NCBI GenBank assembly: GCA_029213065.1
Contig: JARGPH010000019.1
Location: forward strand, 1-64,000
Direction of reading: 5' to 3'
Source: Verrucomicrobiales bacterium
Lineage (GTDB): Bacteria > Verrucomicrobiota > Verrucomicrobiia > Verrucomicrobiales > DEV007
DNA: 64,000 nt
In this document: one piece after another, positions 35,477 to 39,151 of the stretch
Layout: each line of letters begins with the position of its first letter
Numbering within the stretch: the first letter of the stretch is position 1
Notes under the pieces: model-generated
Told to the model about the DNA's origin: nothing
Seen by the model: the letters and a program-made list of their open reading frames with translations, nothing else
The model's database searches: none
Program-made: the position numbers and the translations under genes

Positions 35477-36043
35477 TCAGGCTTCGCAATACCCTCCGTT
35501 CGATTCGGAATCGACGCCGAGACGCTCATCCATGCACTTCTTCAGCGCCGTTCTCGCCCGCTCCAGCGCTTTGCGCACTGCCGGCGGCTTCATTGAAAAT
35601 TCTTCTGCAATGTCCTGAGCCGAACTTTCGTTCTCATACCGGGACTTGAGGAGGCCGAGGCTCTTTTCCGGGAGAGACTTGATGCATTCTCTGAGTGCAT
35701 TCAGCTTGGCGAGACCCCGGTCGCCCAATTCCTCCTCTTCGTGATCCGATGCCGACGAACTGGAAAGGAGGACATCTGTTAAATTGTCAGACAGGATCCG
35801 CTTACGGCGCGCGTCTTTGCGGCGCTCATTGATGACCAGATTGCGCGCAATCCCCCGAAGCCAGGCACCAAAATCACGCTCCCTGTCGAATTCGTCGAGT
35901 CGGTTGTAGGCCACGATAAAGGCCTCTTGCGCGACATCATCGACCCACATAGGCGCGACGCCGAGCGATCGCACGAACCCACGCAATGTTGCGTGATGTT
36001 CGCGAACCTGCTCAATAAACAGCTCGCGGTCTTCCTTCTCCAT
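35477..36043 (-). CDS. ECF-type RNA polymerase sigma factor
   Basis: This 188-aa protein has region 2 (about 10-80: DDVAQEAFIVAYNRLDEFDRERDFGAWLRGIARNLVINERRK) and region 4 (about 115-175: LPEKSLGLLKSRYENESSAQDIAEEFSMKPPAVRKALERARTALKKC). They are joined by a Ser/acidic linker and lack regions 1 and 3. The MW-x-DD-x-AQE form is typical of planctomycete/verrucomicrobial ECF factors. The FecR-domain gene follows after 1 nt. It probably directs transcription of a small stress or surface regulon. Confidence 0.92.
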   Translation of the reverse strand: MEKEDRELFIEQVREHHATLRGFVRSLGVAPMWVDDVAQEAFIVAYNRLDEFDRERDFGAWLRGIARNLVINERRKDARRKRILSDNLTDVLLSSSSASDHEEEELGDRGLAKLNALRECIKSLPEKSLGLLKSRYENESSAQDIAEEFSMKPPAVRKALERARTALKKCMDERLGVDSESNGGYCEA

Positions 36044-36133: not shown

Positions 36134-36161
36134 TTGACAGAAACATTCTCTCGACTAGATT
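36134..36161 (+). promoter_or_regulatory. Promoter of the tRNA-Thr / repeat unit
   Basis: A consensus -35 TTGACA (36134-36139) is followed after 16 nt by TAGATT (36156-36161), a 4/6 -10. The predicted start is near 36168, about 28 nt before the mature tRNA 5' end at 36196. The GC-rich stretch after the -10 resembles a discriminator. Confidence 0.6.
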
Positions 36162-36195: not shown

Positions 36196-36270
36196 GCCGG
36201 AGTAGCTCAGGGGTAGAGCAACGCATTCGTAATGCGTGGGTCGGCGGTTCAATTCCGCCCTTCGGCTCCA
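36196..36270 (+). tRNA. tRNA-Thr (anticodon CGU)
   Basis: The cloverleaf is complete: acceptor GCCGGAG with CTTCGGC (one G-U pair), anticodon stem ACGCA/TGCGT, and loop TTCGTAA giving anticodon CGT. The T arm is GGCGG-TTCAATT-CCGCC. The CCA end is encoded (36268-36270). It reads ACG codons. The last 23 nt of the gene (36248-36270) are also the start of the first of three 108-bp tandem repeats. Confidence 0.95.
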
Positions 36271-36592
36271 TTCCTATGGAGACGCAAACTGCAAAAGGTT
36301 GAACCGACGAAGGCACTGCGGTCCCCCGCAGGTCATCCGCCTCAGTGGAGGACAATTCAATTCCGCCCTTCGGCTCCATTCCTATGGAGACGCAAACTGA
36401 AAAAGGTTGAACCGACGAAGGCACTGCGGTCCTCCGCAGGTCATCCGCCTCAGTGGAGGACAATTCAATTCCGCCCTTCGGCTCCATTCCTATGGAGACG
36501 CAAACTGTAAAAGGTTGAACCGACGAAGGCACTGCGGTCCTCCGCAGGTCGTCCGCCTCAGTGGAGGACAATTCAATTCCGCCCTTCGGCTC
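36248..36592 (+). repeat. tRNA-derived tandem repeat, 108 bp x 3 plus 21 nt
   Basis: Units run 36248-36355, 36356-36463 and 36464-36571, with a partial fourth at 36572-36592. Each unit begins with the 3' end of the tRNA-Thr gene (half the T loop, acceptor strand, CCA), the first being the tRNA itself. The units differ at only a few positions (the base after AAACTG is C, A or T; loop TCCC or TCCT; CATCC or CGTCC). Each holds perfect hairpins: CTCCAT-TCCT-ATGGAG, which buries the CCA, and CTGCGG-4 nt-CCGCAG. The period is a multiple of 3. Confidence 0.97.
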
Positions 36593-36649
36593 TGTTTCTG
36601 AGCGAATTCAGAAAAGGACACCTTCACTAGGTCAGCTTGTCTTTTTTTT
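36271..36649 (+). ncRNA. Candidate rtT-like trailer RNA of the tRNA-Thr transcript
   Basis: The stretch between the tRNA CCA end and the terminator would be transcribed with the tRNA and released by tRNA 3' processing. The repeats are nearly identical and rich in perfect hairpins. In E. coli the tyrT transcript likewise carries 3.14 repeats containing the tRNA 3' end and yields rtT RNA. The sequences are unrelated; the parallel is in architecture. Each repeat could be cut out by enzymes that see a pseudo-tRNA end. RNA status is inferred. Confidence 0.5.
36617..36649 (+). terminator. Rho-independent terminator of the tRNA-Thr / repeat unit
   Basis: GACA (36617-36620) pairs with TGTC (36638-36641), enclosing CCT/AGG, and eight T residues follow (36642-36649). 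The stem is weak but the T-run is strong and lies right after the repeats. Confidence 0.6.
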
Positions 36650-36736: not shown

Positions 36737-39151
36737 ATGTCATCCACCGAACTCAGGCCCCTACTTGAAGCAGACCCAGGAAGCTGGTCGCTTCGCCAGG
36801 CACTTGTTGAAGCTCTTGTTGCAGAAGGCCAGCACGATGCCGCTGTTGAAGTGGTGAATGCCGGAGAGGCGATCCCGAGAGAACCTCAGCCCTGGGTGGA
36901 TGCGGCGAAAGCCTACGCGGCCGTCGGCGCTCTCGAACAGGCACGCGGTCTCATCGCGGGTTCTCTCGAAATCGACCCGGAATACGCCCCCGCGCTGGAG
37001 TATCAAAAGACCATTGAAGCTGCCGTAGCGGCGACGCCGGTGGCTCTCACCGCCGACGATGTTGATGCGGACGAAAATTTATCGACTGATTCCGGCGCCT
37101 CTGCCGTTCCTGTGATCGCCGTTGGATCGGCTGACGGGAACGATCCCATCGCCCTTCCCCAGGTGAGCTTTTCCAGCACCGAAATGGACGCAATCCATGC
37201 GGCGGAAGAGGAGGCAAGACGTATCCGCGAGAAAACAATCGGCCGGGACAAGATGAACTCCATTTTGATCACCGTGGTCGTTCACGTCGCGATCATCGCG
37301 CTGCTGACCTTCGTGGCGACGAAAACGCCGCCTCGCGTTCCACCGCAAATCGTCGCCTCCTCCGCTCCCCCGACGCAGGAGGAAGTGATCGAAAATGTGA
37401 AGATGGACAAACCGACGGTGGAACCCACCTCGGTGAACTCAGCCGTCGCTGACATTATTTCGGTGAGCGCGACCTCTTCCTTTTCCGTTTCCAATGTCGA
37501 CGTGCAGGTCTCCAACATGGCCGTCGAGACCGGAGTCGCCTTCAACCCTTCCATGAGCCTCGGTATGCCGACCTCAACCGAGTCAAAAATGATGTTCGGT
37601 CAGGAAATGGAAGGTGAAGTCCTCGGTGTGATTCTTGACGTTTCCGGTTCGATGGCGGAGTTCCTCCCCGCCGTGGTTCGCGAAGTGGACAAGAATTTCA
37701 AGGATGCCCCGATCGTCTATGTGCGGAACATGCTCATTCGTGACGACAACCGCAAAGAGAGCGGTGAAGTTCGCCTCATTGTCCCTGAGGATGTTATCCC
37801 CTACTACAAAGACGAAACAAACCGGAATGTGCGCTCCCCCTACTGGTTTCTTTGGCACGATCTTCCGAGAAAGGCACCGCAGCGCTATGTGGACCGCCTC
37901 ATCGATACCTTCAAAGAACGTCCCAATCAGTTTCTCTCGGTGGGACGCTGGGAGCAAAGCAGCACCGATGCTGCCGTTGATTTCCTCATGGAGCAGGGAA
38001 TCGATTCTTTATACATTTTCTCCGATTACGAGGATTTCGTCGACGAGGATATTGCTCTCGAAATCGGGCAGAAGCTGGGACGCCGCAAGATTCGCACGTA
38101 CCTGCAACCTGCAGAGGCGGGCAGTGATTTCCTCGACATCATGACGAAGAAAATTGCGAACCGCACCCTCGGTCGCAGAATGCCTTCACTCGTTTCACTC
38201 CTGAACGGCAAGCTCGACGAGCAGCCCACGTCTCTCACGATGCAGAAGCCTGAGGAAGACACCACCCTCGCCGACCTTGATATCAACCTCGCGACGCCCC
38301 GCCCTGAACCGGTTGGCCTCGAATGGTATGCCGACAAGCCAAGTGAGAAACTGGTCGAAATCCACCGTCTCTCTGAACCGGAATACGACGCTGTATTCTA
38401 CGGCCCCGAAGCACGGGTTTACATCTATCTGAAAGATGACAACGGCCAGTATATTCAGAATCCGATTAAGTTCTTCTATCACAGTTGGAAAACGATTCCC
38501 GACCACCCCGACCCCCGCTACCGGACTCGTCGACGAGCTTTCCTGAGAAACGCCGAAGAACCATCCTTTGACGGAAAAGAGATCGTCTGGAAGATGATTC
38601 TCGAAGACGAGCTCAAGTTCGACGTCCATCTCTACCTTGGAAGAAAGGGCATGAATGCGACCTACGTTGCCGACAACCCTACCGATGGCACGAATGACTC
38701 GGCGCACATCTACTTCTCAGTCCCAGCTCTCGCACGAGAGAGAGAAGACCGCTATTACGGTTTCGATTTCCCTGAAGATGGCCTCAAACTCGATCACGTT
38801 CGCGAAGCCAACAAAGAGAACGTCGTCATCATGAATCTGCCCCGCCAGTTCCGGGACCGGTTTGCGAAGAACTGGTCTCAATCCGGCTTTGAAATGGGTG
38901 AAAACACTCGTCATTTCAACGAACTGATCCGTCGACTTCCTGCGGGCATCCGTGAAATGGAGGTAAAAGGACCCTCATTCGGCCCGCGTATCTACAAGGC
39001 CCGGACGACGAGTAACAAGATTCTTCTCAATGGTGGTGCCGGCCGCGCCGATATCGAACCATGGGAAGGATTTTACGCCAGCCTTGCCCGCTCCAGGGAC
39101 ACTCGTGAGAAATTCACGAAGACCGAAGCGATCGAGATCGAGATTAAGTGA
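36737..39151 (+). CDS. TPR - transmembrane - VWA-like protein of unknown function
   Basis: This 804-aa protein has three visible parts. Residues 1-95 look like two or three TPR helices (WSLRQALVEALVAEGQHDAA, then WVDAAKAYAAVGALEQARGLI). A coil follows, then one TM helix (about 173-196), then a Pro/Ser/Val-rich spacer. From about 295 a VWA-like domain shows VILDVSGSM, the first part of a MIDAS metal site. A roughly 270-residue C-terminal region (about 510-780) has no recognisable family. The TPR part would be cytoplasmic, the rest periplasmic. Its start is 87 nt after the tRNA-unit terminator. No named function. Confidence 0.7.
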   Translation: MSSTELRPLLEADPGSWSLRQALVEALVAEGQHDAAVEVVNAGEAIPREPQPWVDAAKAYAAVGALEQARGLIAGSLEIDPEYAPALEYQKTIEAAVAATPVALTADDVDADENLSTDSGASAVPVIAVGSADGNDPIALPQVSFSSTEMDAIHAAEEEARRIREKTIGRDKMNSILITVVVHVAIIALLTFVATKTPPRVPPQIVASSAPPTQEEVIENVKMDKPTVEPTSVNSAVADIISVSATSSFSVSNVDVQVSNMAVETGVAFNPSMSLGMPTSTESKMMFGQEMEGEVLGVILDVSGSMAEFLPAVVREVDKNFKDAPIVYVRNMLIRDDNRKESGEVRLIVPEDVIPYYKDETNRNVRSPYWFLWHDLPRKAPQRYVDRLIDTFKERPNQFLSVGRWEQSSTDAAVDFLMEQGIDSLYIFSDYEDFVDEDIALEIGQKLGRRKIRTYLQPAEAGSDFLDIMTKKIANRTLGRRMPSLVSLLNGKLDEQPTSLTMQKPEEDTTLADLDINLATPRPEPVGLEWYADKPSEKLVEIHRLSEPEYDAVFYGPEARVYIYLKDDNGQYIQNPIKFFYHSWKTIPDHPDPRYRTRRRAFLRNAEEPSFDGKEIVWKMILEDELKFDVHLYLGRKGMNATYVADNPTDGTNDSAHIYFSVPALAREREDRYYGFDFPEDGLKLDHVREANKENVVIMNLPRQFRDRFAKNWSQSGFEMGENTRHFNELIRRLPAGIREMEVKGPSFGPRIYKARTTSNKILLNGGAGRADIEPWEGFYASLARSRDTREKFTKTEAIEIEIK

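Follow-up and report, generated by a model that had tools for sequence, protein, structure and literature searches.

Why should a tRNA gene be followed by several copies of its own 3′ end, each set in a longer repeated unit? The question is raised by a tRNA-Thr gene in a 64,000-nucleotide stretch of a Verrucomicrobiales bacterium genome (contig JARGPH010000019.1, positions 1 to 64,000), hereafter the window. The array of similar build in Escherichia coli, rtT, has to our knowledge no accepted origin. Knowledge of it goes back to 1991 (Bosl and Kersten, as cited in PMC2965389 and PMC4986893). Here we describe the window array together with its homologues in relatives, and propose as a somewhat probable answer a palindromic element anchored at tRNA genes.

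Results

The tRNA-Thr locus

ARAGORN places tRNA-Thr(CGT) at 36196–36270 of the plus strand, on which all features of the locus given in this and the next paragraph lie, with the CCA encoded at 36268–36270. Tandem Repeats Finder reports 3.2 copies of 108 bp at 36248–36592 (period 108, 98% matches, score 662, against 109 for the runner-up array in the window), and the three copies differ pairwise at 2, 3, and 2 of 108 positions, which bears out the tRNA and array of the original prediction. The tRNA 3′ end recurs at 36356–36378 (TTCAATTCCGCCCTTCGGCTCCA) and at 36464–36486, and a partial final one of 21 nt, identified by Tandem Repeats Finder and by comparison of the copies, lies at 36572–36592. 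The predicted burial of the CCA is likewise found, in hairpin P1 (CTCCAT/ATGGAG, 36266–36281, again at +108 and +216), which encloses the tRNA 3′ terminus. The tRNA T-arm recurs in inverted form, TTGAACCGACGA, at 36299–36310 and again at 36407 and 36515, and this copy agrees with the T-arm of the array's own tRNA-Thr at 11 of 12 positions (shuffle p 0.007). Next comes a REP-like palindromic core at 36314–36355, again at +108 and +216, recognized by covariation and by a covariance model that matches at 36314–36358, 36422–36466, and 36530–36574; copy 1 consists of stem P2 (CTGCGG/CCGCAG) and hairpin P3 (GTC...GAC). The repeat had been taken to be tRNA-derived, which is true of the tRNA ends but not of this core, a REP-like palindrome that is found at other tRNAs as well and, in relatives, away from tRNAs. 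The folding energy of one unit is only mildly unusual (z −1.6).

The tRNA and the array had also been thought to be bracketed by transcription signals. A promoter-like TTGACA-16-TAGATT (36134–36161) does precede the tRNA and is the sole promoter-like site in the scanned stretch; a comparable TTGACA...TAGATT stands upstream of the tRNA in relative G023 (L006). The terminator is weaker than claimed, as a strict scan past the array finds none and a possible one, a hairpin with a T8 end at 36592–36649, comes from folding only. With a promoter before the tRNA and a T-run after the array, a transcript common to both is plausible from the sequence. The array is flanked by a minus-strand sigma-70-family (ECF-like) gene and a TPR protein gene (window 35477–36043 and 36737–39151), and a TPR gene lies downstream of tRNA-Thr(CGU) in several relatives too.

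A 92-aa frame runs through the array solely because 108 is divisible by 3. Protein coding was rejected, since the unit spacings of relatives (140, 145, 147, 148, 149, 163, and others) are out of frame; unit lengths vary in the genus, so that there is no conserved reading frame like the tpr of rtT.

Homologous units in relatives

Searches of related genomes, with the tRNA and a reading of the DNA downstream of it and also with covariance models as suggested for the original prediction, yield homologous units behind tRNA-Thr(CGU) and tRNA-Val(UAC), and these occur in many species of the genus in up to 3 copies. The genus sample comprised 34 genomes, and copy numbers are uncertain because nearly all are draft or metagenome assemblies; every named genome with the motif beside tRNA-Thr(CGU) is a metagenome assembly that bears the label Verrucomicrobiales or Verrucomicrobia. 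Our home-made covariance models give rough E-values and were built partly from the very sequences that they later recovered. Homologues behind tRNA-Thr(CGU) are present in G002, G004, G005 (two), G013, G025, G027, and G032, with a decayed unit in G006 and a further one in a different genus (G046), and their presence is patchy among close relatives. In G026 the unit lies 3 kb from its tRNA-Thr, with a 3-kb insertion between the two (L013, 4050–7318) whose right end is a truncated AAA-ATPase-like gene stopping at a unit's inverted T-arm. The covariance model of the unit also places the core behind tRNA-Val(UAC) in the array's own genome and in others, and a core-only model finds tRNA-Val cores in nine species, in tandem in G004, G011, and G031.

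The Thr units have in common GTTGAACCGACGAAGTCACTGC (with changes), the stem CTGC/GCAG, the hairpin GTC...GAC, and an end GACAATTC followed by the tRNA 3′ end; a hairpin at the position of P1 is kept in relatives with a different sequence. In these units the stems are retained while the intervening sequence varies freely. Compensatory changes are seen in P1 and P2, pair cells are paired in 91.5% of cases against 83% in shuffles, and the covariation score was reached by 0 of 500 shuffles.

With the core-only model the insert was also traced, in the same layout, behind tRNA-Pro(UGG), Glu(UUC), Cys(GCA), and Asp(GUC) of the genus. In G016, G025, and G029, tRNA-Glu is separated from its unit by a terminator-like hairpin that has a T-run. 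When 67 tRNA contexts were checked for a second tRNA 3′ end, a divergent case with a different insert appeared behind tRNA-Arg(ACG) of the array's own genome. Acido-Lenti-1 RNA is matched twice near this tRNA, in opposite orientation (L084, 746–791 and 896–941; G000 contig C2), at 33.9 and 35.9 bits, close to the gathering threshold of 37. Cores in G011 were also seen at the 5′ end of tRNA-Ser(CGA), repeating the first bases of the tRNA and not its 3′ end (L263, L264); the contigs at these loci break inside repeats.

Formula of the full unit

The full unit, clearest in the Pro, Cys, and Glu cases, consists of an inverted copy of the T-arm of the host tRNA, the 5′ half of the T-arm, the palindromic insert, and the 3′ half of the T-arm with the acceptor 3′ end. 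Let A denote the T-stem 5′ strand plus the initial half of the T-loop, and B the remaining tRNA 3′ end; the locus then reads: tRNA ...A B, trailer, [rc(B) rc(A)] [A] [insert] [B], trailer. It follows from this formula that the upstream tRNA stays whole and that the unit closes with a further tRNA 3′ end. The Pro unit of G007, for example, reads GACTGGATGAGAACCAGC, CT, GCTGGTTC, insert, AATCCAGTCACCCCG. Inverted T-arms matched the local tRNA better than shuffled spacers did in 25 of 28 units (p ≤ 0.05), and in 22 of the 28 the unit's own tRNA was a better fit than every T-arm of another class; T-arms were located by script, and one unit (Asp_G014) was misparsed, so its low score is one uninformative failure among the 28. 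The window units are a trimmed form of the formula, the inverted T-arm being reduced to the T-stem 5′ side and the T-loop and the T-arm 5′ half before the core being nearly gone.

The same formula is present four times at tyrT/tyrV of E. coli K-12, as GGGGAAGGATGAGAAGCTTCGA, AAGGTTCGA, insert, AATCCTTCCCCCACCACCA, and in the inverted T-loop GA replaces TC in E. coli Tyr as in the Pro and Glu units of the genus. The likeness to tyrT/rtT drawn in the original prediction thus goes deeper than was claimed, with the parts of the K-12 rtT unit in the same order. Rfam's RtT model RF00391 fails to match the window (E ≤ 5) or any of 11 further unit-bearing verrucomicrobial tRNA loci (E ≤ 1); E. coli in the same search as these loci gave four matches (133–138 bits). 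In build the window unit resembles rtT, yet the sequence model places it outside RF00391.

Core copies away from tRNA genes

Dispersal as a generic repeat had been named as an outcome that would speak against the original prediction. The core is dispersed in relatives, but the whole 108-bp unit has a single location in its own genome, as found by whole-genome search, and at E ≤ 0.1 the core is confined there to the tRNA-Thr and tRNA-Val loci. Relatives have a few dispersed copies, and among the 387 genomes of the order that were searched, matches outside the genus came only from G044, G046, G052, G205, and G349, the one in G046 being the sole one at tRNA-Thr. Away from tRNAs, cores lie in an RHS-like gene, inside hsdM, and at or near the points where FGE-like genes end, the gene names being taken from the DNA; the reading frame runs through the hsdM copy, as judged by eye from the sequence. 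The in-frame cores of hsdM-like genes are in L194, L195, and L167 (G044, G205, and G014), with NPPFNDSDTALRGSAFLQSEAKPQVVSEAKDNFRKDDDVRW in G044, and a second insert-like stretch lies slightly further on in the same genes, before FGVPPKGN. Similar cores in L182, L236, L246, and L248 (G025, G005, and G014) end with about GGGTCAATTC and keep a constant position with respect to AGGGACTTGC, seemingly where FGE-sulfatase-like genes have their 3′ end.

The G(C/T)AG before P3 covaries with CTGC/CTAC, strict GTAG being found in G032 only. Covariance model R3 matches a canonical E. coli REP, CTAC...GTAGGTCGGATAAGCGAAGCGCATCCGAC, at E 0.005, a value near the limit for a model whose E-values are rough.

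Several other candidates were rejected. The window unit has no phage match, and in viral contigs the motif gave 5 matches, 0 of them near tRNA-Thr. An integron attC was considered because GTTGAAC fits the core consensus by eye, yet this pattern derives from the T-loop. By eye, the motif pairs with the acceptor strand in GCCACTG-type tRNAs but not in others.

Empty and filled sites

Compared with the tRNA-Thr of G029, which has no unit, that of G002 has 140 bp extra at the tRNA 3′ end, and the post-tRNA flank of G029 follows the last tRNA end in G002 with 80% identity over 294 bp. The alignment of this pair fits an insertion, or a loss through recombination between repeats. The tRNA-Thr(CGU) gene is also a target of integrative elements in G007, G014, and G020 (L021, L025, L026, L188–L190). 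The far end of these elements keeps 48 nt of the tRNA, starting from the anticodon arm, whereas the units have a 20–23-nt block from the T-loop; because of this longer copy, the resident integrative elements are an unlikely source of the units. In G014 and G020 the far end is followed by a TPR gene, as is found downstream in the window.

Discussion

On balance we lean, with modest confidence, towards the reading that the array is a tRNA-anchored palindromic element of the REP/BIME type, of the same kind as E. coli rtT. Such elements would come to sit at tRNA genes, moved perhaps by a RAYT-type transposase, and would carry or acquire the matching T-arm of the local tRNA; recombination between identical tRNA ends would then multiply the units in tandem, here to three near-identical copies. 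Co-transcription of the array with the tRNA is probable, and tRNA processing would release an rtT-like RNA as a product. REP transposition alone is insufficient to explain the matching T-arm. Also counting against this reading are the two core loci of the array's own genome, which are few for a REP family, and the inverted T-arm of the window, which suits a CCGAC-type T-stem and not the current GGCGG of the tRNA.

The compensatory conservation of the stems counts against it as well, in that it suits a functional RNA too. The units could be a conserved, structured trailer of certain tRNAs that is released as small RNAs when the tRNA is processed and kept by selection, with copy number setting the dose, and the changes in P1 and P2 together with a fast-evolving middle whose structure is kept are what such a trailer would show, as are the promoter upstream and the T-run downstream of the array. 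A role in the stringent response has been proposed for rtT. The existence of an rtT RNA in E. coli (PMC4986893) speaks for the same idea, which we nevertheless hold to be rather doubtful: the units are patchy in close relatives, terminator-like hairpins stand between tRNA-Glu and unit in three genomes, cores occur within protein genes, and REP-like DNA elements need stems too.

The matching T-arm could instead come from a replication error, in which, through fold-back at the T-arm hairpin, the tRNA end is triplicated (direct-inverted-direct) and later multiplied in tandem, with no mobile element involved. A short tandem inversion duplication has this same order (T-arm, inverted T-arm, T-arm), and the match to the local tRNA is accounted for; as a complete explanation this is improbable, as it leaves unexplained a core shared by different tRNAs and non-tRNA sites, but the matching T-arm may still originate in such an error. 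The shared core is also unexpected if the units are scars of a tRNA-directed tyrosine integrase, each being an attachment site left behind by an integrative element since lost, and the 22-nt tRNA end being the identity block. The position of the insertion at the end of the tRNA, the old flank resuming beyond the last tRNA end, and the targeting of tRNA-Thr in three relatives agree with such scars. We consider them quite unlikely, given that the resident elements leave an anticodon-arm copy and not one from the T-loop, that phages give no match, and that the presence of the core at many tRNAs and in hsdM, at many sites with no integrase nearby, already weakens the case.

Returning to the REP/BIME-type element, we tentatively raise a broader possibility, that rtT, rather than being peculiar to E. 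coli, belongs to a broad class of mobile palindromes at the T-arms of many tRNAs in distant phyla. These would spread from tRNA to tRNA, each time carrying the local T-arm in one inverted and one direct copy, and the T-arm hairpin would be the recognition target of the enzyme. Because the verrucomicrobial anatomy is found at several tRNAs and in graded states (absent, single, tandem, trimmed), the origin of rtT becomes testable by comparison. The finding connects rtT to REP elements, and provides a natural system for studying how tRNA genes take up neighbours without loss of function.

Comparison with known systems

Rickettsia palindromic elements (RPE) share with the units described here a palindromic element lying in frame within protein genes, here hsdM, and differ in that tRNA loci are the main sites here. 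The likeness to GTAG-type REP, BIME, and REPIN elements lies in dispersed copies and in a G(C/T)AG beside a hairpin with a complementary CTGC/CTAC upstream, in most copies; the verrucomicrobial element is longer (about 45–95 bp), has mostly GCAG rather than GTAG, and sits mainly at tRNA genes, and in the array's own genome the many dispersed copies of REP/BIME are replaced by the Thr and Val loci only. Enterobacterial rtT-like elements belong to BIMEs (PMC2965389), and the verrucomicrobium Opitutus terrae is rich in GTAG repeats (PMC3733652). The rtT of E. coli (RttR; RF00391) has a unit of 178 bp against 108 bp in the window and sits at tyrT/tyrV, whereas the verrucomicrobial units are at other tRNAs in another phylum. 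Both are tandem units behind a tRNA with an identical order of parts, each unit closing with a tRNA 3′ end and bearing an inverted T-arm that pairs with the tRNA end.
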